Origin: Siniperca chuatsi
Lineage: Eukaryota > Chordata > Actinopteri > Centrarchiformes > Sinipercidae
Length of the DNA: 64,000 nt
Direction: 5' to 3'
Assembly: GCF_020085105.1 (NCBI RefSeq)
Contig: NC_058061.1
Coordinates: 7,597,284-7,661,283 of the forward strand
Position 1 is the stretch's first letter. Each line of letters opens with the position of its first letter. The position numbers and the translations under genes were made by a program. The notes beneath the pieces were generated by a model. That model searched no databases. It was not told where the DNA came from and saw only the letters and a list, made by a program, of their open reading frames with translations. Positions 8,601 through 61,260 of the stretch are shown piece by piece.

Positions 8601-8616
8601 ATTAATATAATGGAAA

Positions 8617-9698
8617 TATATGGCACTCAGCTTGTGGTGCTCAAAGCGCCAAAAAAATGCATTTGAAAAACTGGCACAAATTTGGGTTTTTTAATCTCAT
8701 GCCACTTTCTGCTTCTACTTCGACAGCTTTCGTTCACTTACTTTACAAATTAAGATTTTTGCACACCAAACATATGAAAATGTACAATTGGTAACTATTT
8801 TAACAATCATGTAGTAATTTTTCACTTCTAAAGTTCAGAATTTTTACAAATCAAACAATCAATCGATTAATCGAGAAAATAATCAGCAGATTAATCCATA
8901 ATGAAAATAATCATTAGTTGCAGTCCTACACAGGGCCCATTTTTCTGCTTTGAGTACTTTTACTTTTAATACATTTTCCTGATTATACTTACATACTTTT
9001 ATTTAAGTAACATTTTTAATTCAGAGCTTTTACTTGTGTATTTTTACAGTGTGGTATTAGTACTTTTACTTAAGTAAAAGATCTGAATACTTCCTCCACC
9101 AGAGGTATTTCCATTTTCTGCAACTTTATACTTCTGCTTCACTACATTTCAGAAGGAAATATTGCACTTTTTGCTTCACTACATTTATTTGACAGATGGC
9201 TACTATACTTTACACATTGTGATTTTACATGCAATCAATACGATGCATTGTTACAGATTAAACTATACAACGGGATATAGAGTAGTTCATATTAACTCAA
9301 CCATATACAACATTTGAATGCTGCTTACATGTCACGTAATAATAATCCAATCATATCTTTATGATAATGTAACACTGACAATCCACAGCATAATGAGTAC
9401 TTTAAGTACTTTTTTCTGACAATACTTCTGTACTTTGACTTGAGTAAAATTTTAAATGCAGGGCTTTAACTTACAAAGGAATATCTTTATATTTAAATAA
9501 AGGATCTGAATACTTGTTCTACCACTGGAAGCTACACAGACAAGTTGGTATATGCACAAGGTCGGTTGCTGGATATTCTGGAAACACACATGATTAAATG
9601 TCCCAAAACGTCAGAGTGATTAATCTGTTTGCTGGCTGTTGAAACCAGTTTTAATGCACCTTTTGTCACATACCAGAAGGCTATATCATACGAGTCAT
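8617..9698. repeat. Long direct repeat 1, copy A
   Basis: From about TTTTTAATCTCATGCC (8,690) to CGAGTCAT (9,698) this is nearly base for base the same as 12,195-13,208 at a constant offset of 3,510. The first 80 bp or so are similar but diverged. The block holds pieces of an hAT-like MITE (AAGTAAAAGATCTGAATACT) and of the CTGCAACTAATGATTATTTTC MITE, so the duplicated unit was already a mosaic of repeats. Confidence 0.85.
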
Positions 9699-10524: not shown

Positions 10525-10977
10525 CAAATTTGGCGCATCTTGGTTTCTCCATACTGCCTCTTTTTAAAAATGTCCCATTCTCATGCACCATTTTAGATAT
10601 CATACGCAAAACAGAAATTGCAGCCAAGTAGAAGGAAGCAACAGCAGATTATGTTTCTGTTAATATTTCCTTGTTTGCACGTGCATCCTTGTTTTTGATT
10701 TGATGGAACACGGTTGATGTTGATCCGATGTGGGATCAGCTCACTGAAATAATAGTCCTTGTGTAACACAAGTCACTGTAAACATTGAGCAACACCCATA
10801 TTCAACAACTGCAGCATGCTACCGGCGCCAAGATTTCTGACGAAATGAGTAACCAGAAATCTTCATAATCCTCAAGAACAACAGTGAGTCTCATGTTTGA
10901 ATTGTTTTGTTTTTTCAAAATGCCACTCTGAGCTTGACAAAAAATCCTTTGTAATGCCTGTTCTTGGTAACTTCTAA
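10525..10977. repeat. Long direct repeat 2, copy A
   Basis: CATCTTGGTTTCTCCATACT through CCTGTTCTTGGTAACTTCTA repeats at 13,836-14,287 with an offset of about 3,300 and few differences. It includes GTTGATCCGATGTGGGATCA and GCTACCGGCGCCAAGATTTC. Function unknown. Confidence 0.85.
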
Positions 10978-11222: not shown

Positions 11223-12103
11223 CTACTTTCACAGCGCGCGAGACACCAATCACTTCAGCAGGGACACGTGCTTCAGACATCAAATGATATAACACATAAT
11301 ATACTTAATTCATTGTCTGGTTGGTAGTACTCATGAAAGTATGCAGTAGCTGCCAACAAAGTGTCATTTAACAAAGGCGCTCTTGAAGGGTTTCAACATT
11401 TACTTCCTATGTGTGGTATTGTGACATTGATTGCAGTCGATTTAGAAGGGAGGTGCAGTCAATGTCATGGCGTGATGAAAATGTAAGAGGAAGCCAAGTG
11501 AGGCTGGTCCTCTGATTAAAGAAAAGATGTGTTACATACCATGTCGTTGTCGTTAATCTATCAAAACTGCCCTGCAGCTACACAGTGGTGACTCACAACA
11601 AATTAAAAATGAAACCAAGCACATATCATACCGATACACGCCTTAAATACATCTCATCTGTCGACATTAAAATGGCAATGTACAGTACCTGGATGAACAA
11701 AAAGATCAAATGTGTTTTCCAAATAGAAAACAGCATTACAACATGGAATAGCATTTACATGGGAGGTTAAATGCATTTATTTAGGCTGTAATGTAGGCTA
11801 TATCAAATATAATTTCTGTTAGACAGTCCGTAAAAAAACGCTAACTGCCAATTTTAGCAAAACGTACCAGTGGTGGAAAGTACTTTACTCAACTACTTGT
11901 ACTTTATTTTAGTTTTTACCAGTGGTGGAATGTAACTAAGTAGCCTACATTTACTCAAGTATTGTATTTAAAGCGACAGTTCACCCCAAAATCAAACATA
12001 CATATTTTTCCTCTTACCTGTAGTGCTATTTATCCATCTAGATAGTTTGGGCATGAGTTGCTGAGTTTTGGAGATATCGGCCGTAGAGATGTCTGCATAT
12101 ATA
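11223..12103. other. Repeat-rich spacer without a gene
   Basis: Holds two partial CAGTGGTGGAA hAT-like MITE ends close together (11,868-11,950) and otherwise unassigned sequence. No exon recognised. Confidence 0.4.
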
Positions 12104-13208
12104 TATGGCACTCAGCTTGTGGTGCTCAAAACGCCAAAAAATACATTTGAAAAACTGCTGCAAATTTGAGGTACTCGTACTTTATCTGAGTTTTTTAATC
12201 TCATGCCACTTTCTGCTTTTGCTTCTTATTTGACAGCTTTCGTTCACTTACTTTACAAATTAAGATTTTTGCACACCAAACATATGAAAATGTACAATTG
12301 GTAACTATTTTAACAATCATGTAGTAATTTTTCACTTCTAAAGTTCAGAATTTTTACAAATCAAACAATCAATCGATTAATCGAGAAAATAATCAGCAGA
12401 TTAAGCCATAATGAAAATAATCATTAGTTGCAGTCCTACACAGGGCCCATTTTTCTGCTTTGAGTACTTTTACTTTTAATACATTTTCCTGATTATACTT
12501 ACATACTTTTATTTAAGTAACATTTTTAATTCAGAGCTTTTACTTGTGTATTTTTACAGTGTGGTATTAGTACTTTTACTTAAGTAAAAGATCTGAATAC
12601 TTCCTCCACCAGAGGTATTTCCATTTTCTGCAACTTTATACTTCTGCTTCACTACATTTCAGAAGGAAATATTGCACTTTTTGCTTCACTACATTTATTT
12701 GACAGATGGCTACTATACTTTACACATTGTGATTTTACATGCAATCAATACGATGCATTGTTACAGATTAAACTATACAACGGGATATAGAGTAGTTCAT
12801 ATTAACTCAACCATATACAACATTTGAATGCTGCTTACATGTCACGTAATAATAATCCAATCATATCTTTATGATAATGTAACACTGACAATCCACAGCA
12901 TAATGAGTACTTTAAGTACTTTTTTCTGACAATACTTCTGTACTTTGACTTGAGTAAAATTTTAAATGCAGGGCTTTAACTTACAAAGGAATATCTTTAT
13001 ATTTAAATAAAGGATCTGAATACTTGTTCTACCACTGGAAGCTACACAGACAAGTTGGTATATGCACAAGGTCGGTTGCTGGATATTCTGGAAACACACA
13101 TGATTAAATGTCCCAAAACGTCAGAGTGATTAATCTGTTTGCTGGCTGTTGAAACCAGTTTTAATGCACCTTTTGTCACATACCAGAAGGCTATATCATA
13201 CGAGTCAT
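12104..13208. repeat. Long direct repeat 1, copy B
   Basis: Partner of 8,617-9,698, offset 3,510. Near-identical from 12,195 to the shared end CGAGTCAT at 13,208. The leading edge carries about 25 bp (GAGGTACTCGTACTTTATC) not present in copy A. Confidence 0.85.
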
Positions 13209-13835: not shown

Positions 13836-14287
13836 CATCTTGGTTTCTCCATACTGCCCCTTTTTATAAATGTCCCATTCTCACGCACCATTTTAGATAT
13901 CATACGCAAAACAGAAAGTGCAGCCAAGTAGAAGGAAGCAACAGCAGATTATGTTTCTGTTAATATTTCCTTGTTTGCACGTGCATCCTTGTTTTTGATT
14001 TGATGGAACACGGTTGATGTTGATCCGATGTGGGATCAGCTCACTGAAATAATAGTCCTTGTGTAACACAAGTCACTGTAAACATTGAGCAACACCCATA
14101 TTCAACAACTGCAGCATGCTACCGGCGCCAAGATTTCTGACGAAATGAGTAACCAGAAATCTTCAGTCAGTTGCTCATAATCCTCAAGAACAACAGTGAG
14201 TCTCATGTTTGAATTGTTTTGTTTTTTCAAAATGCCACTCTGAGCTTGACAAAAATTCCTTTGTAATGCCTGTTCTTGGCAACTTCT
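13836..14287. repeat. Long direct repeat 2, copy B
   Basis: Partner of 10,525-10,977. It has a small extra block after AGAAATCTTCA (GTCAGTTGCTC) that copy A lacks. Together with direct repeat 1 it suggests a tandem segmental duplication of a region over 2 kb whose middle later diverged or was replaced. Confidence 0.85.
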
Positions 14288-15149
14288 AGTTGATAATGTT
14301 TGTGGAATTAATTTTTTATTTTAATTCAAAAAGTGAAATTTAGGTTGTCCAGATACCATTTATCTTTACCTGGTTTTGAGAGGAGTCAGACCTAACTTTA
14401 AAGAAATGAGACAGTGAGATCTGAAGGGGGGGTATGATATATTTACATCAGAAACTAAACTTAACAGTCTAGATGTAAAAAAATATATATAATTATTGAA
14501 ATTTGACAAGATTTGATGATTTAATGGTGATGTTCTCTCCATTTGATTAAATAATACTAAGATATTCATCATTAAATTGATTATTGCTGTATGTTGATGG
14601 ATATCTTTCGGTGCATTTGCCACCGCCAAATCAAAACCTAAAATTATAAACTCTGAAAATGATAAACTTCTGAAGTGTGAGATCAGCAACAGTGTGAGTG
14701 ATTTAGGAAATAGATTAAGTTTTAAGAGATGTCCCTGAAAGTTATTCAAACAAATAGCACCACCTCCTGACTCATTACAGCTATGACTACTAAGGATTTT
14801 GCCTCTGTAATGATTGATGACACCCAAGTGAGTAAAAACACTTGTTCAGATAGTTATAGCAATGGATAGAAATAAGAAATATGAGAGTATAAAACACATT
14901 TCAACTAAAAGAAAATGGAGAGAAGATAAAACAATTAAAGATGAATGAATTTGCAGCATATATAAATCCACCAGTTGTCAGCACATGCAAACTGTGTAAA
15001 TGATGATCTCTGCTCATTTTGATCTTTTATTTAAAGTCAAGATGAACAGAAGGCAACACGCACACCACTCGCTTTGTCTCTTTTGTGGTGCAGGGAATCA
15101 AATCCCCCAAAGATCCAGTAAATTCCTGCGCACACTTATCACCTCGGCA
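14288..15149. other. Unassigned stretch with one long minus-strand ORF
   Basis: A 153-codon open frame lies on the minus strand at 14,366-14,827. Its translation is rich in L, S and N and contains FFTSRLLSLVSDVNISYPP, and I do not recognise it. Its nearness to Penelope-like pieces makes a retroelement remnant possible. No other gene is seen. Confidence 0.35.
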
Positions 15150-16472: not shown

Positions 16473-16474
16473 TA

Positions 16475-17589
16475 CAGTATCTCACAGAAGTGAGTACACC
16501 CCTCACATCTTTGTAAATATTTTTTTATATCTTTTCATGTGACAACAGTGAAGAAATGACACTTTGCTACAATGTAAAGTAGTGAGTGTACAGCTTGTAT
16601 AACAGTGTAAATTTGCGGTCCCCTTAAAATAACACACAGCCATTAATGTTTAAACCGCTGGCCACAAAAGTGCGTACACCCCTAAGTGAAAATGTCCAAA
16701 CTGGGCCCAATCAGCCATTTTCTCTCCCCAGTGTCATGTGACTCATTAGTGTTAAAAGGTCTCAGGTGGAAGGACGTCCTGTGGTCTGATGAGACCAAGA
16801 TGAACTTATTTGGTTTAGATGTTGTCAACCGTGTGTGGCGGCAACCAGGTGAGGAGTACAAAGACAAGTGTGTGTGTCTTGCCTACAGTCAAGCATGGTG
16901 GTGGGAGTGTCATGGTCTGGGGCTGCACGAGTGCTGCCTGCACTACAGTTCATTGAGGGACCCATGAATGCCAACATGTACTGTGAAATACTGAAGCAGA
17001 GCACGATCCCCTCCCTTCGGAGACTGGGCCACAGGGCAGTATTCCAACATGTTAGCGACCCCAAACACACCTCCAAGACGACCACTGCCTTGCTAAAGAA
17101 GCTGAGGGTAAAGGTGATGGACTGGCCAAGCATGTCTCCAGACCTGAACCCTATTGAGCATTTGTGGGGCATCCTCAAACGGAAGATGGAGGAGCGCAAG
17201 GTCTCTAACATCCACCAGCTCCATGATGTCATCATGGAGGAGTGGAAGAGGACTCCAGTGGCAGCCTGTGAAGCGCTGATGAACTCCATGCACAGGAGGG
17301 TAACGGCAGTTCTGGAAAATTATGGTGGCCACACAAAATATTGACACTTTGGGCCCAGTTTGGACATTTTCACTTAGGGGTGTACGCACTTTTGTGGCCA
17401 GCGGTTTAGACATTAATGGCTGTGTGTTGAGTTATTTTAAGGGGACCGCAAATTTACACTGTTATACAAGCTGTACACTCACTACTTTACATTGTAGCAA
17501 AGTGTCATTTCTTCAGTGTTGTCACATGAAAAGATATAATAAAATATCTACAAAAAAGTGAGGGGTGTACTCACTTCTGTGAGATACTG
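16475..17589 (+). mobile_element. Tc1-like DNA transposon, internally deleted
   Basis: Flanked by TA on both sides. Terminal inverted repeats are about 235 bp, starting CAGTATCTCACAGAAGTGAG. Each holds an outer and an inner direct repeat (AAGTGAGTACACCCCT and AAGTGCGTACACCCCT), the IR/DR plan known from Sleeping Beauty-like elements. The transposase begins at VLWSDETKMNLFG (first catalytic Asp), so the N-terminal helix-turn-helix half is missing. A frame change lies near 16,870-16,900. From 16,940 the frame is open through DWPSMSPDLNPIEHLWGIL, which contains the second Asp and the Glu of DD34E, and it ends at 17,341. Not self-mobile. Confidence 0.9.
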
Positions 17590-17649
17590 TATATAGATAT
17601 ATATGTGTGGGTATATAATAAAAACCACGGAAGTTTCATCAGTGAGAAA

Positions 17650-17955
17650 CAACTCTGCTGAAGGTACTCCTTTGTTTGACCAGCCCGTCATGGAGCGGGT
17701 GGGAGACACTGTCCAAGATGGCATGTAGTTTGGCCAGCATCCTCCTCTCTGACACCACCGCCAGAGAGTCCAGCTCCACCCCCACAATGTCACTGGCCTT
17801 ATGGATCAGTTTGTTGAGCCTGTTAGTGTCCGCTACCCTCAGCCTGCTGCCCCAGCATGCAACAGCATATAGGATAGCACTGGCCACCACAGACTCATAG
17901 AACATCTTCAGCATTGTCCGGCAGGTGTTGAAGGACCTCAGCCTCCTCAGGAGTT
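17650..17955 (-). mobile_element. LINE 3'-region fragment (Rex/CR1-like)
   Basis: Minus strand gives LKMFYESVVASAILYAVACW and NRLNKLIHKASDIVGVELDS, the region after the RT core. It is almost the same as 34,145-34,445. It ends right at the outer edge of the left palindrome arm. Confidence 0.8.
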
Positions 17956-18227
17956 GAGGTTAACTAAGGTGAAGTTGTTTTTGTGTTGCAAAGAGTAACA
18001 AGTGGAAGAAACGTGAGTGGAAAACGCTGCGAGGCGGAACATGCAGAAAGAAAGCTCATTTTCTGAAACAAAAACAAATAATGACTGTGTCGCTATAAGA
18101 AGACATGACAGATACATACACAGAAAGAGAGCAGACTCAGTGTTTATCTTCCAGTAAGTTAAACACTTTGTATCAGTTTTGTTTCGTCCCGGAAACACAA
18201 CTTAACTTTTCCTTTAACATGTCAGGA

Positions 18228-18343
18228 AGCTCCGCAATGAAGCAGAGCATCAAAAATTCAATAAGACTCTTATTGATCCTCTCCACGGAAATCTTTAGTA
18301 AAAGGCGAAAGATTTATACGATCTGAAGAGAAATCAGAGTGAT
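18228..18343 (-). ncRNA. RNU5: U5 spliceosomal snRNA, left arm outer copy
   Basis: U5 snRNA of the major spliceosome; loop 1 holds exon ends during both splicing steps. On the minus strand the RNA starts near ATCACTCTGATTTCTCTTCA. It has the invariant loop 1 in CGCCTTTTACTAAAG, an Sm site in GAATTTTTGATG (five T, one fewer than most copies here), and a terminal stem GCTCTGC/GCGGAGC. Length is about 116 nt, as in other vertebrates. A 3'-box-like GTTAAAGGAAAAG follows. Mirror partner: 25,490-25,606. Confidence 0.93.
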
Positions 18344-18388
18344 CTACTTACACCGCGGCGCGAGACAACGATCACTTCAGCGGGGACA

Positions 18389-18562
18389 CGTGCTTCACCA
18401 CTGGTGTAGTTATTGATCTCACTCAATAACACAAACCACTAACTGGATGCTGTGGACAAACATGGCGCAGCTGGTGAATGTAAACTTTGCGCTGCTTAAC
18501 TGAGATATTTTTGAATCGCTTAGTCTGATGTCGAGTGGTGACGCAATGCATGCTGGGAGTTG
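18389..18562 (-). promoter_or_regulatory. U5 promoter: PSE and SPH/ZNF143-type distal element (left outer)
   Basis: On the transcribed strand CACCAGTGGTGAAGCACG lies at about -46 to -64, where an snRNA PSE belongs. CCCAGCATGCATTGCG lies near -200 and matches the SPH/ZNF143 (Staf) motif typical of vertebrate snRNA distal elements. The PSE call rests on position and on conservation with the diverged copy at 26,350. Confidence 0.8.
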
Positions 18563-19114
18563 AGGACGTCACTCTCGTTTGAGTTTCATTTTCTCCGTGT
18601 TTTTCCTTTTGCTTTCCTTTACCGTTTTAAGTTACTTTAAGTCTATTTGAGTGCAACACTTTACACGCAGACCGCAATGGCACCGACGGCGGTTCAGGTA
18701 GTTTGTGTTAAATCTCCAGTGTGACGGCCTTTGACTGCCCAGAGCCCGCAGATCTCATGCAGGACAGCGCCTCCATGTGGGAACAGACCTCACAAAACCG
18801 GTCTATGTCTCCTTTTTGCATTTCCCAAACAGCACTTTTAAAGTGCTTTATCACTGAGTAACACATATTATAGTGTTGCAGGTAGCGGGCATTTATTCCA
18901 AGAATAACAGACAGACTAACATAAACTCAAAAACAGCGTCTGACAAGACGGGATATCAGGCGCTTTTTTGTTGCTGTACAGTTTTAAACCTGTGTTTTCT
19001 GTTTCTGTTATGTATTTTTAAAAGCATTAGGATAACGGAAATAACGCAACACGTGGAGCCATCACGGAATAAGGTTGTTTTTTTTTTGTCCCAGAAACAC
19101 AGCAACAATCCAAT

Positions 19115-19180
19115 TGCATGGCTCTGTCCAAAGGTAACAAAATCCACGTCCCAGCACCTCTAAAGCTCACTAATTAACAT
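19115..19180. repeat. MITE fragment ('TTAGATGA' family)
   Basis: GGCTCTGTCCAAAGGTAACA and CACCTCTAAAGCTCACTAAT match the interior of the MITE at 7,078. It is mirrored at about 24,655-24,725 in the right arm. Confidence 0.6.
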
Positions 19181-19715
19181 GTCAGCGGAAGACTCATCCC
19201 CCCACAATGCACCACAGAGCGCCACAGGAAGTCATTGCTGCCTGTGGCCATCAAACTCTGTAACTCCTCCCTCTAAGTGTCAGTCTGTATGACCCTAAGT
19301 CACTAAACTGGACATTGATCATTACATCTCTGCAATACTTGAAATAATTGTGCAATATTCCGTGTTAATACTGCTGTGCAATAGACTCTTTTCAGTTTTA
19401 AATTCCTATTTATTGATATTTTTACTGCTGCGCAATATTCTCCGTCTCATTATAACCTTAATAAGCTAAATTTAACTTGACAGTTCGTGCACTATTTCTT
19501 TATACCGTATTATCATCATCAACCGGTAAACCCACTTTGTACTTCACACTTATTTTATTTTATACTTATACCCACCTGGTACTTAATTTATCTGACCTGT
19601 ATTATAGTGTATTATATTTTTTTGCTTAGTACTTCTATTCCTGTGTGCACTGACGTGATAGTGAGCTGCTGTGACAGTTTCCCCTCAGGGATCAATAAAG
19701 TATTTCTGATTCCGA
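19181..19715 (+). mobile_element. LINE 3' UTR fragment in the left arm
   Basis: From CAGCGGAAGACTCATCC to the tail GGGATCAATAAAGTATTTCT. It matches the 3' region of the minus-strand LINE at 33,604-35,062 (same family). It sits between the outer and middle U5 genes and is present at the mirror position in the right arm, so it was inserted before the palindrome formed or was copied by conversion. Confidence 0.85.
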
Positions 19716-19862
19716 TGTTAAATCTAAGTCGGACTAACTCTTGGCTGTGCATTGCACATTTTATTAGTGTACGCAGACTTGTGTGTGTGTGTGTGAATAT
19801 GTGTGTGTAATGATAATCGCTGTTAGAAACAGCTGACGCTTTTTTCCTTTAACATGTCAGGA

Positions 19863-19979
19863 AGCTCCGCAATGAAGCAGAGCATCAAAAAATTCAATAA
19901 GACTCTTATTGATCCTCTCCACGGAAATCTTTAGTAAAAGGCGAAAGATTTATACGATCTGAAGAGAAATCAGAGTGAT
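19863..19979 (-). ncRNA. RNU5: U5 spliceosomal snRNA, left arm middle copy
   Basis: Same RNA as the other arm copies: loop 1 CGCCTTTTACTAAAG, Sm site GAATTTTTTGATG (six T), terminal stem GCTCTGC/GCGGAGC, 117 nt. A 3'-box-like GTTAAAGGAAAAAAG lies downstream on the transcribed strand. Mirror partner: 23,859-23,975. With intact loop, Sm site and promoter elements it is a good candidate for an expressed gene. Confidence 0.94.
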
Positions 19980-20023
19980 CTACTTCACCGCGGCGCGAGA
20001 CAACGATCACTTCAGCGGGGACA

Positions 20024-20197
20024 CGTGCTTCACCACTGGTGTAGTTATTGATCTCACTCAATAAAACAAACCACTAACTGGATGCTGTGGACAAACATGG
20101 CGGAGCTGGTGAATGTAAACTTTGCGCTGCTTAACTGAGATATTTTTTGAAACGCTTAGTCTGATGTCGAGTGGTGACGCAATGCATGCTGGGATTA
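20024..20197 (-). promoter_or_regulatory. U5 promoter: PSE and SPH/ZNF143-type distal element (left middle)
   Basis: PSE-like CACCAGTGGTGAAGCACG at about -45 to -63, and CCCAGCATGCATTGCG near -200 to -218 on the transcribed strand. An ETS-like CCGGAAGCG stands just further upstream. Spacing is the same as in the right arm. Confidence 0.8.
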
Positions 20198-20527
20198 CGT
20201 TTTCGCTTCCGGGTTATCTCACATTTAAATTCTACTCAGCTGTCTCGGGTATTTTCGTGAATTTAATATAATAAGTTCAACCCAACAGTCAAAGGCACGA
20301 CAGCACGACACCCGCACCGTTACTCCCGCCATGTTGGTATTCACACTTTTAAATTAATCTTATATATTAACTTTCCGATGCATGAAATCATCATACACAG
20401 TAAACACCACAGGCGCAGATGAAACGCCTTTACTCGTGGAACCTGCACGTGTTTCACCAGGTGAGACATTAAAAGCCGGTCATCGGTGAAAAACGGCTCT
20501 AACTTTTTTTTCTTTAACATGTCAGGA

Positions 20528-20643
20528 AGCTCCGCTATGAAGCAGAGCATCAAAAATTCAATAAGACTCTTATTGATCCTCTCCACGGAAATCTTTAGTA
20601 AAAGGCGAAAGATTTATACGATCTGAAGAGAAATCAGAGTGAT
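20528..20643 (-). ncRNA. RNU5: U5 spliceosomal snRNA, left arm inner copy
   Basis: Loop 1 CGCCTTTTACTAAAG is intact. The Sm site has five T. The loop of the 3' stem reads TTCATA where the other copies have TTCATT, a variant shared with the mirror partner 23,196-23,312. A 3'-box-like GTTAAAGAAAAAAAAGTTAG follows. The PSE is present at 20,689-20,706, but the SPH element near -200 is absent, because similarity to the other units stops near 20,775. Confidence 0.92.
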
Positions 20644-20688
20644 CTACTTCACCGCGGCGCGAGACAACGATCACTTCAGCGGGGACAC

Positions 20689-20706
20689 GTGCTTCACCAC
20701 TGGTGC
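20689..20706 (-). promoter_or_regulatory. U5 PSE (left inner), no SPH element
   Basis: CACCAGTGGTGAAGCACG on the transcribed strand at the right distance. Neither an SPH motif nor an ATTTGCAT octamer is seen in the 100 bp around -200. Confidence 0.7.
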
Positions 20707-21168
20707 AACGTTAAATAAAACAAACCACTAACTGGATGTTGTGGACAAACATGGCGGAGCTGATGAATGTAAACTTTGCTTAATCTTATATATAAACTTT
20801 CGGACAGTCCTGCCACACAGCTCGGGTTTCTGTTGATGAGGAGTAGGAGCGTCCGTGAGGTACTGACGTTCAGATACACCTTCTTTAAGGTGACGTTAAC
20901 TGACGTGAATTTGTTTTTATTTACATGTAGTATATATGGTGAGACCTGGGGTATCCTCACTGTTCACCCAGCATCAAAAGTGTTCCCAGAGTGTTGGCTG
21001 AAAGTGTGTTTGAGAGACCCGAAAACAGATGAGGCAGGGCTGTTGCAGTTCAATTTTATAGCCTATGCATTTCTTTGTTGATGTGTGTCTGTCTGTGGTT
21101 TAAACATCCAAATATCTTACAGTTTTTCTCAATTGATAAAACACAATTTCTGAAACTTTGCTCCATTT

Positions 21169-22396
21169 GCTTAGTAAATATACTAAGCTAAGCTAACCAG
21201 CTGCTGGCTGTAGCTTATCTTAGTATATTTACTATACAGACACAGCAGTGGTATCAATCAGCTTACCCTCAGAAAGAAAGTTAATAAGTGTATTTCCCAA
21301 AATGTTGAACTTTTCATTTAACAAGAGGCTATATAGGCTCTTTGTTGACTTCTGGCTATTTATTGAAGTTAAGGATTGCACACAATTTCTCTTACAGTTT
21401 TTCTCAATTGCTAAAACACTAACACCCATTGGCTGAACAAAGTTCTCAGTTGCCTGGCCCCATTTAGCTAATTGTGCAGTCTGTTGTCGATACCTTAAAC
21501 CATTTCACATAAAGCACAATTTGCAGATCTCACTTAGACGTCTCAGCAAAACTCTAAACACATTCTGCACTCTTAATGCACATGTCGTCCATACTGGTAA
21601 ACACAAGCGGCAACAATCAAATACAAATAGATAACACACGTCATTGATTGAACACAACCACTCAAAATTGATGTAACCTGTTTCAAATGATGTGACACAA
21701 CCCACATAAGCCAGTTCAGAGAGCAAACAGGTTGTGCTCTGGCCTGACCCAGCCCAAAGACAGGAGAAGCACATTGATCACATGTTTACTCCTTTGATTT
21801 TTGGCCCTTTTAGTATTGTATACTGCAGTACAGTGCATTGTAGGCTGTATACTGTACAATGAACAAATCGTATGGCTCTGAACATTGTGCTTTCCATTTG
21901 TCAACAGTACTGACTGCTCAATAGATGTTGACTGGTTGCAGGTTCATTACAGTATCACAGAGACAAAGGGCGAGTTTGTGAGATGCAGGGTACAGTACTG
22001 TAAAAACAGGGGTACAAGGAGGAGGAAGAACAACAAAATCTTGCAAAGAGCAAAGCAGAGTAGTAATTTCTGATCAATTTTGAGCTACTATGATAGAACA
22101 TGTTTTTGCTCATAAGAAGACAGTGACGGAGAAATATTACATTTGTTTATTGATTAAAAATGTACTTCTCCCTGAGAACTATGTTTTGAACAATGTATTT
22201 TCTGTTTTTTGGTGTATTGTTTACTGACTGCTTGATAGTGTATATCATTTTGATCACTTGGTTTATGATTTGAGAGCAGTGCTTGATTTTGAACACAGGT
22301 AAAACTGTTTTGAGGCGAAAGTTTCATTTTGCGAGAGGAGTCAGAGGTTTTGTAAATAGTGCTTGAAGATGAGGTTTTGTGTTTAATGGTTTCAGA
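21169..22396. other. Spacer at the centre of the palindrome
   Basis: About 1.2 kb that is not inverted. It starts with a fragment of the 'TTAGATGA' MITE family (to about 21,310) and then the left and middle part of a mariner-like element. No host gene seen. Confidence 0.8.
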
Positions 22397-22445
22397 AAAT
22401 GGAGCAAAGTTTCAGAAATTGTGTTTTATCAATTGAGAAAAACTG
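21395..22445. mobile_element. Tc1/mariner-like nonautonomous element in the palindrome centre
   Basis: Ends with matching inverted termini CAGTTTTTCTCAATTG(C/A)TAAAACAC, each followed outward by TA (21,393-21,394 and 22,446-22,447). Length is 1,051 bp. The 62-codon ORF at 21,885-22,073 ends in a basic run (GTRRRKNNKILQRAK), perhaps a remnant of a transposase N-terminus, but no DDE domain is seen. Its right 49 bp belong to the right arm and are repeated, inverted, in the left arm at 21,120-21,168. Confidence 0.75.
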
Positions 22446-22633
22446 TAAGATATTTGGATGTTTAAACCACAGACAGACACACATCAACAAAGAAATGCAT
22501 AGGCTATAAAATTGAACTGCAACAGCCCTGCCTCATCTGTTTTCGGGTCTCTCAAACACACTTTCAGCCAACACTCTGGGAACACTTTTGATGCTGGGTG
22601 AACAGTGAGGATACCCCAGGTCTCACCATATAT

Positions 22634-22894
22634 CCATCCATCCATCCATTTTCTACCGCTTGGTCCCCGTTAGGGGGTCGCGGGTGACTGGAGCCTATCC
22701 CAGTGACTTCGGGCCTTAGGCAGGGCACACCCTGGACAGTGGCCAACTCGTCGCAGGGCGAACACAGACACAGACAAGGACAGACAACCATTCACTCACA
22801 CATTCATTCAATACGGGCAATTTAGAGTTATCAATTAACCTACACATGCATGTCTTTGGACGGTGGGAGGAAGCCGGAGAACCCGGAGAGAACC
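22634..22894. mobile_element. Short (ATCC)n-ended retroelement inserted in the right arm only
   Basis: A 261-bp block opening with CCATCCATCCATCCATTTTC and containing GGGCAATTTAGAGTTATCAA and GTGGGAGGAAGCCGGAGAAC, a very common teleost interspersed repeat. It is bounded by 13-bp direct repeats TCTCACCATATAT (22,621-22,633 and 22,895-22,907). The left arm has the single uninterrupted site at 20,932-20,944. The family name is uncertain; it is probably a LINE-mobilised sequence. Confidence 0.9.
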
Positions 22895-23133
22895 TCTCAC
22901 CATATATACTACATGTAAATAAAAACAAATTCACGTCAGTTAACGTCACCTTAAAGAAGGTGTATCTGAACGTCAGTACCTCACGGACGCTCCTACTCCT
23001 CATCAACAGAAACCCGAGCTGTGTGGCAGGACTGTCCGAAAGTTTATATATAAGATTAAGCAAAGTTTACATTCATCAGCTCCGCCATGTTTGTCCACAA
23101 CATCCAGTTAGTGGTTTGTTTTATTTAACGTTG

Positions 23134-23151
23134 CACCAGTGGTGAAGCACG
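23134..23151 (+). promoter_or_regulatory. U5 PSE (right inner), no SPH element
   Basis: CACCAGTGGTGAAGCACG at about -62 to -45 of the U5 start at 23,196. As in its mirror copy, the region near -200 is foreign to the other U5 units and lacks an SPH motif. Confidence 0.7.
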
Positions 23152-23195
23152 TGTCCCCGCTGAAGTGATCGTTGTCTCGCGCCGCGGTGAAGTAG

Positions 23196-23312
23196 ATCAC
23201 TCTGATTTCTCTTCAGATCGTATAAATCTTTCGCCTTTTACTAAAGATTTCCGTGGAGAGGATCAATAAGAGTCTTATTGAATTTTTTGATGCTCTGCTT
23301 CATAGCGGAGCT
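23196..23312 (+). ncRNA. RNU5: U5 spliceosomal snRNA, right arm inner copy
   Basis: Loop 1 CGCCTTTTACTAAAG, Sm site GAATTTTTTGATG, terminal stem GCTCTGC/GCGGAGC with the TTCATA loop variant. 117 nt. Followed by GTTAAAGAAAAAAAGTTAGA, a good match to the snRNA 3' box. The transcript is predicted intact, but the distal promoter element is missing. Confidence 0.93.
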
Positions 23313-23640
23313 TCCTGACATGTTAAAGAAAAAAAGTTAGAGCCGTTTTTCACCGATGACCGGCTTTTAATGTCTCACCTGGTGAAACACGTGCAGGTTC
23401 CACGAGTAAAGGCGTTTCATCTGCGTCTGTGGTGTTTACTGTGTATGATGATTTCATGCATCGGAAAGTTAATATATAAGATTAATTTAAAAGTGTGAAT
23501 ACCAACATGGCGGGAGTAACGGTGCGGGTGTCGTGCTGTCGTGCCTTTGACTGTTGGGTTGAACTTATTATATTAAATTCACGAAAATACCCGAGACAGC
23601 TGAGTAGAATTTAAATGTGAGATAACCCGGAAGCGAAAAC

Positions 23641-23814
23641 GTAATCCCAGCATGCATTGCGTCACCACTCGACATCAGACTAAGCGATTCAAAAATATCT
23701 CAGTTAAGCAGCGCAAAGTTTACATTCACCAGCTGCGCCATGTTTGTCCACAGCATCCAGTTAGTGGTTTGTTTTATTGAGTGAGATCAATAACTACACC
23801 AGTGGTGAAGCACG
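23641..23814 (+). promoter_or_regulatory. U5 promoter: SPH/ZNF143-type distal element and PSE (right middle)
   Basis: AATCCCAGCATGCATTGCG at about -217 to -198 with an ETS-like CCCGGAAGCG just upstream. CACCAGTGGTGAAGCACG lies at about -63 to -45. No TATA box follows the PSE, consistent with a Pol II snRNA promoter. Confidence 0.82.
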
Positions 23815-23858
23815 TGTCCCCGCTGAAGTGATCGTTGTCTCGCGCCGCGGTGAAGTAG

Positions 23859-23975
23859 ATCACTCTGATTTCTCTTCAGATCGTATAAATCTTTCGCCTT
23901 TTACTAAAGATTTCCGTGGAGAGGATCAATAAGAGTCTTATTGAATTTTTTGATGCTCTGCTTCATTGCGGAGCT
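23859..23975 (+). ncRNA. RNU5: U5 spliceosomal snRNA, right arm middle copy
   Basis: Full-length U5: 5' stem sequence ATCACTCTGATTTCTCTTCA, loop 1 CGCCTTTTACTAAAG, Sm site GAATTTTTTGATG, terminal stem GCTCTGC-TTCATT-GCGGAGC. 117 nt. 3'-box-like GTTAAAGGAAAAAAG at about +17 after the RNA end. Both promoter elements are in place. Mirror partner: 19,863-19,979. Confidence 0.95.
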
Positions 23976-24118
23976 TCCTGACATGTTAAAGGAAAAAAGC
24001 GTCAGCTGTTTCTAACAGCGATTATCATTACACACACATATTCACACACACACAAGTCTGCGTACACTAATAAAATGTGCAATGCACAGCCAAGAGTTAG
24101 TCTGACTTAGATTTAACA

Positions 24119-24655
24119 TCGGAATCAGAAATACTTTATTGATCCCTGAGGGGAAACTGTCACAGCAGCTCACTATCACGTCAGTGCACACAGGAATAGA
24201 AGTACTAAGCAAAAAAATATAATACACTATAATACAGGTCAGATAAATTAAGTACCAGGTGGGTATAAGTATAAAATAAAATAAGTGTGAAGTACAAAGT
24301 GGGTTTACCGGTTGATGATGATAATACGGTATAAAGAAATAGTGCACGAACTGTCAAGTTAAATTTAGCTTATTAAGGTTATAATGAGACGGAGAATATT
24401 GCGCAGCAGTAAAAATATCAATAAATAGGGAATTTAAAACTGAAAAGAGTCTATTGCACAGCAGTATTAACACGGAATATTGCACAATTATTTCAAGTAT
24501 TGCAGAGATGTAATGATCAATGTCCAGTTTAGTGACTTAGGGTCATACAGACTGACACTTAGAGGGAGGAGTTACAGAGTTTGATGGCCACAGGCAGCAA
24601 TGACTTCCTGTGGCGCTCTGTGGTGCATTGTGGGGGGATGAGTCTTCCGCTGACA
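24119..24655 (-). mobile_element. LINE 3' UTR fragment in the right arm
   Basis: Mirror of 19,181-19,715: tail AGAAATACTTTATTGATCCC at the left, CTTCCGCTGACATG at the right. Only a few differences from the left-arm copy are seen by eye. Confidence 0.85.
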
Positions 24656-25271
24656 TGTTAATTAGTGAGCTTTAGAGGTGCTGGGACGTGGATTTTGTTA
24701 CCTTTGGACAGAGCCATGCAATTGGATTGTTGCTGTGTTTCTGGGACAAAAAAACAACCTTATTCCGTGATGGCTCCACGTGTTGCGTTATTTCCGTTAT
24801 CCTAATGCTTTTAAAAATACATAACAGAAACAGAAAACACAGGTTTAAAACTGTACAGCAACAAAAAAGCGCCTGATATCCCGTCTTGTCAGACGCTGTT
24901 TTGAGTTTATGTTAGTCTGTCTGTTATTCTCTTGGAATAAATGCCCGCTACCTGCAACACTATAATATGTGTTACTCAGTGATAAAGCACTTTAAAAGTG
25001 CTGTTTGGGAAATGCAAAAAGGAGACATAGACCGGTTTTTTTGAGGTCTGTTCCCACATGGAGGCGCTGTCCTGCATGAGATCTGCGGGCTCTGGGCAGT
25101 CAAAGGCCGTCACACTGGAGATTTAACACAAACTACCTGAACCGCCGTCGGTGCCATTGCGGTCTGCGTGTAAAGTGTTGCACTCAAATAGACTTAAAGT
25201 AACTTAAAACGGTAAAGGAAAGCAAAAGGAAAAACACGGAGAAAATGAAACTCAAACGAGAGTGACGTCCT

Positions 25272-25445
25272 CAACTCCCAGCATGCATTGCGTCACCACT
25301 CGACATCAGACTAAGCGATTCAAAAATATCTCAGTTAAGCAGCGCAAAGTTTACATTCACCAGCTGCGCCATGTTTGTCCACAGCATCCAGTTAGTGGTT
25401 TGTTTTATTGAGTGAGATCAATAACTACACCAGTGGTGAAGCACG
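25272..25445 (+). promoter_or_regulatory. U5 promoter: SPH/ZNF143-type distal element and PSE (right outer)
   Basis: CTCCCAGCATGCATTGCG at about -218 to -198, and CACCAGTGGTGAAGCACG at about -63 to -45. A CRE-like TGACGTCC stands just upstream of the SPH motif. Confidence 0.8.
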
Positions 25446-25489
25446 TGTCCCCGCTGAAGTGATCGTTGTCTCGCGCCGCGGTGAAGTAG

Positions 25490-25606
25490 ATCACTCTGAT
25501 TTCTCTTCAGATCGTATAAATCTTTCGCCTTTTACTAAAGATTTCCGTGGAGAGGATCAATAAGAGTCTTATTGAATTTTTTGATGCTCTGCTTCATTGC
25601 GGAGCT
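25490..25606 (+). ncRNA. RNU5: U5 spliceosomal snRNA, right arm outer copy
   Basis: Loop 1 CGCCTTTTACTAAAG, Sm site GAATTTTTTGATG, terminal stem GCTCTGC/GCGGAGC, 117 nt, then GTTAAAGGAAAAG as a 3'-box candidate. Mirror partner 18,228-18,343 has one T fewer in the Sm run. Confidence 0.94.
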
Positions 25607-26136
25607 TCCTGACATGTTAAAGGAAAAGTTAAGTTGTGTTTCCGGGACGAAACAAAACTGATACAAAGTGTTTAACTTACTGGAAGATAAACACTGAGTC
25701 TGCTCTCTTTCTGTGTATGTATCTGTCATGTCTTCTTATAGCGACACAGTCATTATTTGTTTTTGTTTCAGAAAATGAGCTTTCTTTCTGCATGTTCCGC
25801 CTCGCAGCGTTTTCCACTCACGTTTCTTCCACTTGTTATTCTTTGCAACACAAAAACAACTTCACGTCAGGTAACGTGACCTTAAAGAAGGAGTATCTGA
25901 CCCCCTACTCCTCATCAACAGATACCCGAGCTGTGTGTGTGTGCGCCCGCGAGGGGGCGGGATTTTCGACAATTAATATAAGATCTATTTAAAAGTGGTA
26001 ACATCATTACTAATAACATTACTAATAACATTTGGCAGCGCAGTCGTGCTTTTGAGGTTGAAATTATTATTTTAAACTCGTGAAAATAACGAGACAGGTC
26101 TGCCCATTTTAAATTATAGATAAACCGGAAGCGAGG

Positions 26137-33603: not shown

Positions 33604-35062
33604 AATCAGAATCAGAAATACTTTATTGATCCCCGAGGGGAAACTCTTTTGTTACAGCAGCTCACTATCACGTCAGTGCACACAGGAATAGAAGTACTAA
33701 GCAAAAGATATAATACACTATAATACAGGTCAGATAAATTAAGTACCAAGTGGGTATAAGTATAAAAATAAAATAAGTGTGAAGTACAAAGTGGGTTTAC
33801 CGGTTAATGATAATAATACGGTATAAAGTAATAGTGCATGAACTGCCAAGTTAAATGTAGCTTATTAGGATTATAATGAGACGGAGGATATTGCGCAGCA
33901 GTAAAAATATCAATACCAATAAATAGGGAATTTAAAACTGAAAAGAGTCTATTGCACAGCAGTATTAACACAGAATTAGCACAATTATGTCAAGTATTGC
34001 AGTGATGTTAATGATCCAATGTCCAGTTTAATGACTTAGGGTCATACAGACTAACACTTAGAGGGAGGAGTTAAACAGTTTGATGGCCACAGGCAGGAAT
34101 GACTTCCTGTGGCGCTCTGTGGTGCATTTTGGGGGATGAGTCTTCCGCTGAAGGTGCTCCTTTGTTTGACCAGCCCGTCATGGAGTGGGTGGGAGACATT
34201 GTCCAAGATGGCATGTAGTTTGGCCAGCATCCTCCTTTCTGACACCACCGACAGAGAGTCCAGCTCCACCCCCACAATGTCACTGGCCTTATGGATCAGT
34301 TTGTTGAGCCTGTTAGTGTCCGCTACCCTCAGCCTGCTGCCCCAGCATGCAACAGCATATAGGATAGCACTGGCCACCACAGACTCATAAAACATCTTCA
34401 GCCTTGTCCGGCAGATGTTGAAGGACCTCAGCCTCCTCAGGAAATAGAGGCGGCTCTGGCCCTTCCTGTAAAGAAAAGAGTTTGAGTGTTCTTAGCCCAG
34501 TCCAGTTTATTGTCCATGTGTACTCCCAGGTACTTGTAATCCTCTACCATGTCCACACTGACCCCCTGAATGGAAACCGGGGTCACTGGTGCCTTGGCCC
34601 TTCGTAGGTCTACAACCAGCTCCTTAGACTTTGTCGCATTGAGCTGCAGATGGTTCTGCTCACACCATGAAACAAAGTTCCCCACCACAGAACTGTACTC
34701 AGTCTCATCACCACCGCTGATACATCCCACCACAGCAGAGTCATCAGAAAACTTCTGAAGCTGGCAGGACTCTGTGTGGTAGCTGAAGTCTGTGGTGTAG
34801 ATGGTGAAGAGGAAGGGAGAGAGGACAGTCCCCCGAGGGGCCCCAGTGTTGCTGACCACGCTGTCCGACACACAGTGCTGCAGGCGCACATGCTGTGGTC
34901 TGCCAGTCAGCTAGTCAACAATCCAAGATACAAGGGGGGCGTCCACCTGCATCGCTGCCAGCTTTTCATCCAGCAGGGCTGGCCGGATGGTGAAAGCACT
35001 GGAGAAGTCAAAAAACATGATCCTGCTTGGCGGCTTCTCCAGGTGGGTGTGGATGCGGTTCA
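33604..35062 (-). mobile_element. LINE (Rex/CR1-like), 5' truncated, with RT
   Basis: Minus strand from about 35,062: RT motif A (IMFFDFSSAF), GAPRGTVLSPFLFTIYTTD, the SDDSAVVG catalytic block, then EDYKYLGVHMDNKLDW. After a frame break comes MFYESVVASAILYAVACW. The 3' UTR ends at the left in AGAAATACTTTATTGATCCC. Same family as 17,650-17,955 and the LINE tails in the palindrome. Several frame breaks; inactive. Confidence 0.88.
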
Positions 35063-39357: not shown

Positions 39358-39950
39358 GTAAGGGCCCGAGCAGGCAGCAGAGAGGGATCAAGTGTCTTTT
39401 CATGTGATATACAGAGATTGATTCACTTCGTGATCATATAAGTAATTGTGTAGATATTTGGTTCTCTGTGCCTTGTTTGCATTTCATGGTTTACCTGTAT
39501 TTGGCAGGCTTTTAGCTTCCTGTAGGCCTATAAACACACACAGAAGCTGTAAAAGCAGGCCCTGTGTGTGTGTGAGTGTGAGTGTGAGAGTGATTTAGAG
39601 GAAAGGAACCGTTTACTGTAATCTGTATAACGTCAGCCCCTGCTGTGTGTGTGTTGAAATCACCAAGGTGTTGTCATCCTTGCCTGAAGCCCTCTCTGGT
39701 CAATTTTCTGGAATTTGCCTTCATGCTGCAGCAATAAGCAATATTCTGTCAGGGAGACGAGTCTAATTTGGTCACAGGGGTTGAAACATACAGACTGATC
39801 TTTCAGGACGGCATCGGGTCTGCTTTTATCTTTTTTCTCAAGACTCATTTTGAGAGTGTCAGGTTTTCTGCGAGAACAGAGAGGCCCGGAGGTCTGGTAG
39901 AAGTGGAAAACAGTTAGTGTATGCCTGCCCGCACCATGATGGCCTCTGAC

Positions 39951-42900
39951 ATGGCTGAGACGTGGAGGAACTGTTTTGAGGAGGAGCTCATCTGCCCCAT
40001 CTGCCTGCACGTGTTCTCAGATCCCATCCAGCTGCCCTGCAAGCACAACTTCTGCCGGGGCTGCATCAGCGAGGCCTGGGCCAAAGACTCTACACTGGCC
40101 CGCTGCCCTGAGTGCAATCATGCTTACAGCCAGAAGCCCAGCCTGGAGAAGAACCACAAACTGTCCAACATAGTTGAGAAGTACAACGCCCTGAGCGTGG
40201 AGAAGGCAACCACGCCGGCGCTGCAGTGCATCCTGTGCCGCCGGGGCCCGCCACTCCCCGCAGTGAAAGTCTGCCTGCGCTGCAACGCCCCGTGCTGCCA
40301 GTCCCACGTCCAGACACACCTGCAGCAGCCGTGCTCAGCCCTCGGGCACCTGTTGGTGGAGGCAGAGGCGGTGAAGGCCTGGACCTGCCTGCAGCATGAC
40401 GAGTACAGGCTGTATCACTGCGAGGCCGAGCAGACAGCGGTGTGTCAGTACTGCTGCTTCGCCCGCTGCCACCCCAGCCACGGCCATGCGGTCACTGACG
40501 TGGAGCTGCGACGCAACGACATCAGAGTAAGGAGACTTTTATATCGTACACATACATTAAACAAATACACACTTGTTTATTCACTTATTTCTGCTCAGGG
40601 CGGTGTCACACTCTGACACTGACAGAAACAAAATTACTGCGAAAGAACAAAGTATTTTGATAATAGGTTAATTGTTCATCTTTTTTTTTTTTAAGCAAAA
40701 ATGGTAAATGTTCGCTAGTTCCAGCTTCTCAAATGTGAATAATATCTTCTTTGACAGTAAACTGAATATCTTTGGGTTTTGGATTGTTGGTCAAACAAAA
40801 CAAGACATTTTAAGACCTCACCTTGGGCTCTGCGAAACTGCGATTTTGCTCTTTGCTGACATTTTATAGACTAAACGATTAATCGAGAAGGAAAAACGTT
40901 AGATTAATCGATAACTACAATAACCGTTCATTGTGGCCCAACTTGCGAAAATGTGTCAGTTCATCAGTGATCAGTAATTGTTGGCTAAGTGCCCACTCAA
41001 GTACCAAAATGTAGCTTTGTGCATTCATAACAGCATCACACAAGCCAGTGAGGTCATTTTTCATCTACTTTGTAGTCGCCATGCAGAACAAAGGACATAT
41101 TTTAAATTCATTTTTTGCCAAATAAAAGACATAAAGTGGAGGCTTTTGGGTACAAAGCTGTCTGTGATATGTTCTCAGTTGTTTATGTATTTAGCAAGTC
41201 ACTTTACTTAGTGGAAAAACAGAATTCCCCATTTTAAGAAACAATTTTGGGTGTTTTTTTTAGCCCCTGTGTGAGAGTCTTGTGCATTTTTCAGTTGTGA
41301 TCCACTCCAACCTCCATTCTCATCTGTTGGAATGACAAACAATGCAGTCGAGGGTGGAACAATGAGGGGCCCTCAGAGGGCCTTATCTCCCCAGCACAGG
41401 TGCATCCTAGCTCAGGGATCGCCATTTGTGAAGGGGGTGGAAGTGGAGGCAAGGGGTAGGGGGATTAAAGTGATTTGTCACTTGATTCTGCGGTGTACTT
41501 GGGGTTTTTTATTAACCTCTTCCTTTCCTGGGGGTTTTGTGCTCGCTGTCGTCGGTTTGAGCAGAGGTCGGATTGGTTTTCCGCCCCCTTTCTTTTTTCC
41601 AGTTTTAAAGGGGTGTGTGACAGGGCAGTTTAGTCAGAGGGAGAACCATGTAGGCTACACTGCTGACTGACTCATGTTGTTCACCCAACACCCTGTTTAG
41701 GTGTCAACTGTGTCATGCTTGGGTGTATTTCCTGTTGGTAATGCTATGACTCAGCTTTATGTATAGTTAATCGGTTGCCTGGGGCACAGGAAGGGCCATC
41801 GGATGGGACCTGGTCTGAATTTAAAAGCTGTATTACCAAAATCCTTCACATTTACAGCTTTTCCTACATTATGTATAATCAGGCTGGGCGATAAGTAGAG
41901 CCCAGTTAATTCTGGTTTTGACCCAGATACAGATATCAATATTTATCTTTAAAAAATATGATGTACTATCAGCTGAGATTACTTTTTTAGCATAAACACA
42001 TAAAAGAAACAAACATTTTTGATAAGGATCCCTTAAATATAGATATAAAAGAATTGTGAGAAAGATATGTGTTAAGTGGGACATTTTACAGTTTATTTAT
42101 TTTACATTATACAAAATAAACTCTGGAGTGCAAACTGTGTAATGGCAACAAGAGCTAGAGGGATAAATCAGCAGGGTCGATATGTCAGCTGATATTAGCT
42201 TATCACAAATATATGTCGGCCGATAAATAACAAGAAGGTGCAGTACATAAATGCCAAATATATGTTTGATGTAATTTAGAAACAGTATCGCCATTACATG
42301 GTCACAATTCTTTCAAAAATAAATCTGAAAAAATAGTTTAAAGCATCCTCTCTACCGGTATATACCGTCAATATACCGTCAACAAAGAGTTTCCCCTCAG
42401 GGATCAATAAATTATTTCTGATTCTGATATCACCTAACCCTACTGTTGTGTAGTGTGTTAGCATGCTAACATATGCTAATTAGAGCTAAAAATGAGCACT
42501 AAACACAATATACAGCTGATGGGAATGTCATAGTCATAAAACAAAGTACAGCTGCAACAGTTATTTTCATTATCGGTTAATCTGATTACTATGTCCTTGA
42601 TTAATCGATCAATCGCTTAGTCTATAAAATGTCAGAAAATTGTATTTAAAAAATTCCCATTACAATTTCCCACAGACCACGGTGACGTCATCAAAAGTCT
42701 TTGTGTTATTTTATATGGTTATTGGGTTTTTAAAAAATTCTCAAATATCTATATCTGTCGTGCTATAATGGCACTGTTTCTAAACGACTCTGTATCTTTG
42801 GCATTTCTCTACTGCGATTTCTTGTTACGTATTGACAGAAATATATGTAGATGCTGATAAATAGCATAGAAATATTGGCAATGCCGACGTATTGGTCGGG

Positions 42901-57954: not shown

Positions 57955-58964
57955 TTGTGATTTTTCTTATCTTTTTTATTCACATACAGTACCTTCAATT
58001 CTGGACAGATTACATTCAAGAATATCAAAAGGAAACGTCAAAAGAGTGAATTCCCTCACTAACCCAAAGAGCACAAAGAAATGCATTGGGACGTACAGTA
58101 CTATACCTCTGTTAAAAATCTACCGGCATATATTAGATATGCAAACATTATAGACTACAAAGTACAGCAGGGTAACTTATACTCTATCACATGTGCATAA
58201 CGTAACATATGAACACAGGGCCGAGCTATTTACATTTGATCCAAAAATGTAGTGCCTCTTAACCATTAAATTTGTATCTTTTTTTATACATATTAACATG
58301 TACAGTATTATTCTTTAGTGGGAAGAGTCGGACCGTTTCTCCAACACCCTTGAAATCACACACACCACACCAGTTGTTGTTCGAAAGCACTCTACACTCT
58401 ACTTCACCATAAATAAAACAATTACAAAAATATACCTCACTTCAAACAGAGCCATAGCAGGAAAAGCGCTTACAGCCATTGTGGAATGAAAAAAAAAAAA
58501 AAAAAAAAAAAATCAACCTGTAAGAATAAGATGGAGAAAAAGATGTGTGAAAAGTGTATTAAAGAGTTTAAAGAATATGCTGAAATTCCAAAGAAAGACA
58601 GCAGTTTAATGGGAATGTTTGACGTTGTGACAGGCTGTGGATGGTGGCTGGGATTGGCTGGGACAGTGACGGTGACATGGGTAATCTGGGTGGAGGAGGT
58701 TGATTTCCTGGCATGGGTTCCCTTTGAAGTCAAAACCCTGCTTCTCTTTGTAGAGGCCAACGTAGGAAGATGTGTTGAGATTAGTAAACATCAGTGATAC
58801 AGGAATGTATAGAATGCAGGGGGTTAAAAACTCCAAGTCCATGTTGGATTAGTAGTGTGTTTACATTCACAGGTATATCCCATCGTACTAAGGCTCAGGA
58901 GGGTGCAATGTGTGTCAGTGTGTGTGTGCTGCTGTTCCTCCTGAGTAGAAGACTAGAAGCAAAA
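57955..58964 (-). other. arl3 3' UTR (probable)
   Basis: Region after the arl3 stop on the minus strand. A TTTATT at about 57,975 is an AATAAA signal on the gene strand. A poly(A) run of about 23 bases on the plus strand (58,489-58,511) is a T run in the transcript. The end is an estimate. Confidence 0.5.

Positions 58965-61260
<2,296 letters not shown>

Follow-up and report, generated by a model that had tools for sequence, protein, structure and literature searches.

We analysed a 64,000-nucleotide (nt) stretch of the Siniperca chuatsi genome, hereafter the window (contig C20, 7,597,284-7,661,283, in an assembly of 718.8 Mb and 65 contigs), that holds a near-perfect palindrome carrying genes for U5 small nuclear RNA (snRNA). 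Two inverted arms enclose a spacer, and each arm contains three U5 genes, named a, b and c from the centre outwards, while two further U5 matches, d and e, lie outside the arms. The arms, the spacer and the U5 copies are located as follows (positions within the window; arms compared with the basic local alignment search tool (BLAST) and MAFFT; U5 scores from the Rfam model RF00020).

17959-21171, plus strand: left arm (BLAST and MAFFT against the reverse complement of the right arm)
21172-22393, no strand: 1,222-nt spacer separating the arms (self-comparison)
22394-25875, minus strand: right arm, its private insertion included (BLAST, MAFFT)
20528-20642, minus strand: U5 copy a, left, 94.0 bits
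19863-19978, minus strand: U5 copy b, left, 98.8 bits
18228-18342, minus strand: U5 copy c, left, 94.1 bits
23197-23312, plus strand: U5 copy a, right, 98.7 bits
23860-23975, plus strand: U5 copy b, right, 98.8 bits
25491-25606, plus strand: U5 copy c, right, 98.8 bits
26352-26466, plus strand: U5 copy d, an older copy a short way beyond the right arm, 97.5 bits
11106-11221, minus strand: U5 copy e, a degenerate outlier on the left, 74.3 bits

When one arm was compared with the reverse complement of the other, BLAST aligned 2,992 columns at 99.1% identity and a further 240-nt block that has 1 mismatch. In the MAFFT alignment of 17,969-21,168, the 3,189 aligned bases include 7 substitutions (0.22%; Poisson 95% interval 0.09-0.45), and there are 12 insertions or deletions (indels): a single long one of 274 nt and 11 small ones of 1-4 nt, several of which fall in short runs. 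Inverted arm identity was thus 99.8% by substitutions and 99.1% with indels, above 99% by either measure, and the original prediction of a near-perfect palindrome with arms of about 3.2 kb around a 1.2-kb spacer was borne out. Its further claim that the arms differ only by scattered differences stood for the substitutions and fell for arm length, as the right arm is longer by a 261-nt insertion and a 13-nt duplication. The differences are evenly spaced along the arms (Kolmogorov-Smirnov p 0.80 for all 19 and 0.75 for the 7 substitutions), which fits a single recent duplication. The outer flanks of the two arms are unlike each other, and when the arm was used as a query against the assembly (45 matches; 6,206 candidates, 40 of them scored), its non-LINE part (LINE, long interspersed nuclear element) gave no long match among those listed other than the two arms themselves, the remaining ones listed belonging to the embedded LINE family, to three short stretches beside copy d and to one 65-nt stretch on C16. 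A 63-nt self-complementary stretch (21,172-21,234) opens the spacer, immediately next to the left arm, and may be a relic of a palindrome-forming fold-back or a small mobile element.

The long indel and the LINE material shared by the arms are placed as follows.

22634-22894, minus strand: young LINE-type 3' tail of 261 nt, in the right arm only, with an empty site in the left arm at about 20,932
19182-19716, plus strand: old LINE 3' part in the left arm, 92.4% identical to 33,605-34,151 (BLAST)
24118-24653: old LINE 3' part in the right arm, the partner of 19182-19716 (BLAST)

The 274-nt indel is composed of the 261-nt insertion, which ends in repeated ATGG, and one copy of a 13-nt repeat, ATATATGGTGAGA, that forms a perfect direct repeat around the insertion in the right arm and is single and uninterrupted in the left. 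The filled right arm and the empty left arm are two states of one retroposed-tail site, and the tail itself is presumably a LINE of L2 type, our family candidate. At least 40 other places in the genome, all of the scored matches listed, are 100% identical to the insertion, so that the insertion is very young; we rejected it as a means of dating the palindrome, since an event this young is silent on any older age of the arms. The LINE tail predicted to recur in each arm is indeed present in both, and this embedded element is 88-92% identical to other copies in the genome among the scored matches of the arm query.

From these sequence features the palindrome as assembled is very probably real. 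Because the right arm carries a private insertion with an intact target-site duplication and the left arm an empty site, a fold-back of one molecule is unlikely, as such a fold cannot yield an insertion in one arm only. We consider it very improbable that the second arm is an assembly artefact, arising either from a fold-back or from haplotypes that were wrongly joined, even if the arm differences are rich in indels and the left arm is the odd one at 6 of the 7 arm differences that fall inside the U5 gene cassettes delimited below (18,252, 18,350, 18,430, 20,143, 20,152 and 20,552, where the right arm agrees with the sister copies). A haplotype misjoin would need an inversion of one allele, and the 1.2-kb spacer and the unlike outer flanks also speak against an artefact, as does the absence of any N from the window. 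Some of the arm differences may nonetheless be consensus errors.

Turning to the genes, all 8 matches to RF00020 in the window exceed the gathering score of 40 bits, with 4 on the minus strand on the left and 4 on the plus strand on the right. Six U5 genes had been expected, three per arm and pointing away from the centre; this number and orientation agree with the Rfam matches in the arms, where all six score far above the threshold (94.0-98.8 bits), while the total for the window is eight, as d and e lie outside the arms. Loop 1, also part of that expectation, is intact in all six arm copies and in seven of the eight copies of the window, being altered in copy e. The expected Sm site was found with some variation, its run of T being six long in six of the eight window copies and one short in the other two, left-arm copies 18,228 and 20,528, which through the differences at 18,252 and 20,552 have AATTTTTG in place of AATTTTTTG; five T are also found in most array-type U5 copies of the same genome, described below. 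Copy a is told apart by a T/A difference in its 3' stem. Copy d differs from right b at 34.9% of 307 aligned cassette positions, and copy e, with a changed loop-1 base and a lost ACC block as judged by eye from the alignments, is probably a pseudogene. No U2 match at gathering score was found in the window with Rfam. Beside copy e lies a direct local duplication of 96-97% identity (8616-9698 with 12101-13208, and 10536-10976 with 13836-14288), whose second copy is without a U5.

Upstream of several of these genes we found matches to an 18-nt distal element, using a consensus that we take to be that of ZNF143/SBS.

23644-23661, plus strand: ZNF143/SBS-like distal element of b right, 16/18 positions
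start 25,275, plus strand: ZNF143/SBS-like distal element of c right, 16/18
start 26,138, plus strand: ZNF143/SBS-like distal element of d, 16/18
start 20,195, minus strand: ZNF143/SBS-like distal element of b left, 16/18
start 18,559, minus strand: ZNF143/SBS-like distal element of c left, 16/18

No other match in the window reaches 16/18, and 200 mononucleotide shuffles gave a mean of 0.0. Each of the five starts 214-217 nt upstream of its gene, b or c in either arm or d, so that five of the eight window copies have the element. The scan of the window found none at copy a of either arm or at copy e. Closer to the genes, an ACC block near -63 and a GTTAAAG-like, 3'-box-like stretch about 10 nt downstream were seen, by eye only, in a, b and c and in weaker form in d, and the ACC block was likewise seen by eye at U5 genes of other chromosomes. 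In copy a the proximal part is present, as is the 3' stretch, and the distal element is missing; copies b, c and d look functional by their sequence.

Within each arm, copies b and c have in common a cassette that spans the gene together with these elements.

23645-23996, plus strand: cassette b right, reaching from -215 to 21 nt beyond the RNA, 100% identical to 25,276-25,627
25276-25627, plus strand: cassette c right, 100% identical to 23,645-23,996 (BLAST)
19842-20194, minus strand: cassette b left, 99.15% identical to cassette c right, three differences from right b
18207-18558, minus strand: cassette c left, 99.15% identical to cassette b right, three differences from right c

Copies b and c are identical at 352/352 positions in the right arm and 98.3% identical in the left (BLAST), over a tract of 352-353 bp per arm beyond which BLAST detected no likeness between them in either arm. 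The flanks of the tract in the right arm scored 20 on the 5' side (shuffle mean 18.0, maximum 30) and 14 on the 3' side (shuffle mean 14.4, maximum 21). The tract opens at the second base of the 18-nt distal-element match and runs to 21 nt beyond the RNA, where it stops inside the 3'-box-like stretch. This coincidence of a shared tract with a gene and its control elements suggests that b and c owe their likeness to gene conversion of a cassette running from the distal element to the 3' box, conversion being confined to the cassette because the flanks of b and c no longer match, a pattern that is expected if old copies with decayed flanks are converted over the part that selection holds. The bases at 20,103 fit conversion of right b by c: right b matches c there, whereas left b matches e and copy a of both arms, and d carries a different base. 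Within 50 bp of this position left b has two more differences. The complete identity of b and c in the right arm and their unrelated flanks would also follow from a recent short duplication that pasted the cassette into a second place, no conversion being involved. We regard this paste as rather unlikely, because both ends of the tract fall at functional limits, the distal element and the 3' box, where a random breakpoint would rarely fall.

The likeness of the arms themselves is another matter, and on sequence grounds it is explained equally well by a recent inverted duplication as by conversion. An old palindrome in which gene conversion between the arms continually erased their differences, in the manner of sex-chromosome palindromes, would account for arms more than 99% identical despite their old content (the LINE tail is 8-12% from its relatives), and the conversion suggested between cassettes lends it some plausibility. 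No observation demands arms older than their 0.22% divergence, however, the insertion confined to the right arm is a very recent event, and the arm differences form no mosaic pattern, so we think it unlikely that the arms have such a history. Mosaic conversion tracts between the arms were looked for and rejected, given evenly spread differences and a left-b cluster of three that lacks significance (p 0.43 for any 3 of the 19 differences falling within 50 bp). The original prediction that the palindrome is kept alike by gene conversion accordingly found no proof in the arms, which at 0.22% evenly spread divergence look as a recent duplication would, and it gained indirect evidence between cassettes b and c.

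The locus is best read as a recent inverted duplication, itself very probably real, inside an ordinary multicopy U5 cluster, and for its history as a whole we favour, as the probable course of events, a recent inverted duplication in a cluster of RNA-polymerase-II-type U5 genes, followed by the right-arm insertion and by conversion of the b and c cassettes. Starting from such a cluster, a block of about 3.2 kb with genes a, b and c would recently have been copied in inverted orientation beside itself, with the 1.2-kb spacer between, and the LINE-type tail would later have entered the right arm, in the order of events that we think most plausible. Conversion over the distal-element-to-3'-box cassette would have homogenised b and c. 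The array as it now stands is made up of six near-identical, outward-facing genes together with the older d and the degenerate e, and it would presumably be transcribed, serving the dosage of one of the genome's two U5 sequence types.

Several points weigh against this history. It is drawn from the sequence of one assembly and one individual, and small indels (11) outnumber substitutions (7) between the arms. The non-significance of the left-b cluster also counts here, since its three differences could be private changes or consensus errors, and the six cassette differences at which the left arm is odd hint at residual left-arm consensus errors as well as at right-arm conversion. Among the promoter elements, the distal one is lacking from copy a, and a looser scan at 14/18 gave 11 sites where 5 shuffles gave a mean of 5.0, so that the six weaker matches are mostly chance and provide no evidence.

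To place the palindrome among the U5 genes of the genome, we evaluated a genome-wide search with at least 37 matches, all over the cut-off, fetching the flanking DNA of the 29 that lie elsewhere in the genome and aligning all 37, which revealed two U5 sequence types. The type of the window is also found at C20:5.87 Mb and C10:11.9 Mb among the matches listed. The second type lies mostly together with U2, on the end of C12 and on the small contigs C27, C29, C41 and C46 (22 of the 37 matches), where regular repeats of U2 and U5 are about 1 kb in length, and has further members on C22 (two), C3 and C17 and a weak one on C10. This array type scores at most 81.2 bits versus 94-99 bits in the palindrome. 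With 22 of the 37 scored U5 matches lying with U2 elsewhere, the view of the palindrome as a system for a major spliceosomal RNA was overstated. In at least 4 of the 22 U2-U5-array copies, one or two bases are missing in or at the loop-1 CGCCTTTTAC stretch.

Other splicing RNAs of this genome are also arranged in both orientations. The 42 scored U4 matches comprise 3 on C4, all on one strand, and 39 in an array at the end of C15 (921-85043) that switches strand midway, by a true inversion or perhaps by scaffold orientation, with 15 scored matches on the plus strand at 0.9-39 kb and 24 on the minus strand at 52-85 kb, while U1 forms a one-strand array on C22 and a cluster of nine on C7 (28035385-29120800), four on the minus strand at 28.03-29.06 Mb and then five on the plus strand at 29.11-29.12 Mb. 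Inverted pairs of this U1 cluster are 89-98% alike (seven of the nine units compared), the best at 98.3% over 1,159 columns. With U1 and U4 loci on both strands, an inverted snRNA arrangement is not peculiar to the U5 locus of C20, and clusters of splicing-RNA genes that are repeated and inverted are nothing unusual. It is quite doubtful whether one can go further and see in non-array snRNA genes repeatedly inverted clusters (U5 on C20, U1 on C7) with cassette-only conversion of U5, distinct from the tandem arrays of the second type. Unlike U5 copies b and c, the U1 units have more in common than a promoter-to-3'-box cassette, which weighs against such a general form.

These arrangements can be set beside known systems. 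According to PMC3464664, U2-U5 linkage is the common situation among the fishes studied, and the teleost U2-U5 tandem arrays described there (Plectorhinchus mediterraneus and others) likewise have multi-copy U5 with a proximal sequence element and a 3' box; their unit of U2 and U5 is about 1 kb, whereas the palindrome has U5 alone, inverted and at unequal spacings. The genome studied here has U2-U5 repeats of this teleost kind as well, and they hold another U5 type than the palindrome. The U1 cluster on C7 resembles the palindrome in having repeated units in both orientations and differs from it in being larger, with units tens of kilobases and more apart and less alike (89-98%). Human RNU1 and RNU2 loci (PMC13083260) are multicopy snRNA genes like the U5 cluster, but RNU2 is a large tandem array, unlike the inverted U5 palindrome, and the word 'inverted' is absent from the main text of that paper; concerted evolution of RNU2 appears as a title among the references of PMC3464664. 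Sex-chromosome palindromes (PMC3723533, PMC8981503) have inverted arms more than 99% alike, as here, and their conversion is reportedly backed by population or species data, whereas the U5 palindrome is known from the sequence of one genome. Among the matches listed in a search of paper titles, none named a U5 palindrome. Maternal- and somatic-type snRNA of zebrafish are reportedly the subject of one paper, and none of the title matches listed named them. A 43-base U5 pattern had no match in a bacterial and archaeal contig collection.

We see in the palindrome a small natural experiment on what keeps essential multicopy RNA genes uniform in an inverted, non-tandem arrangement. The cassette edges mark the conserved extent, and long-read and population work can readily use the one-arm insertion and the differences between the two arms as markers. 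The genome also offers two U5 sequence types, each with a different organisation.

Around the palindrome, a degraded transposon, bounded by inverted ends and containing a DDE_3 domain, which we take to be Tc1-like, occupies 16473-17591, and to the right of the cluster lie a RING-type exon at 39918-40616 (Pfam RING), presumably TRIM8-like, and ARL3 exons at 58915-60760 (best PDB matches ARL3; Pfam Arf). At the left arm, two LINE pieces (17654-17952 and 19182-19716), separated by 1.23 kb with U5 copy c, are complementary in their coverage of the reference copy at 33605-34910 (BLAST), the inverted 5' part stopping at the equivalent of 34,144 and the in-arm 3' part beginning at 34,151. No target-site duplication was seen by eye around the two pieces; their mismatch rates are alike (Fisher p 0.36), and together they look like one twin-primed or inverted insertion.

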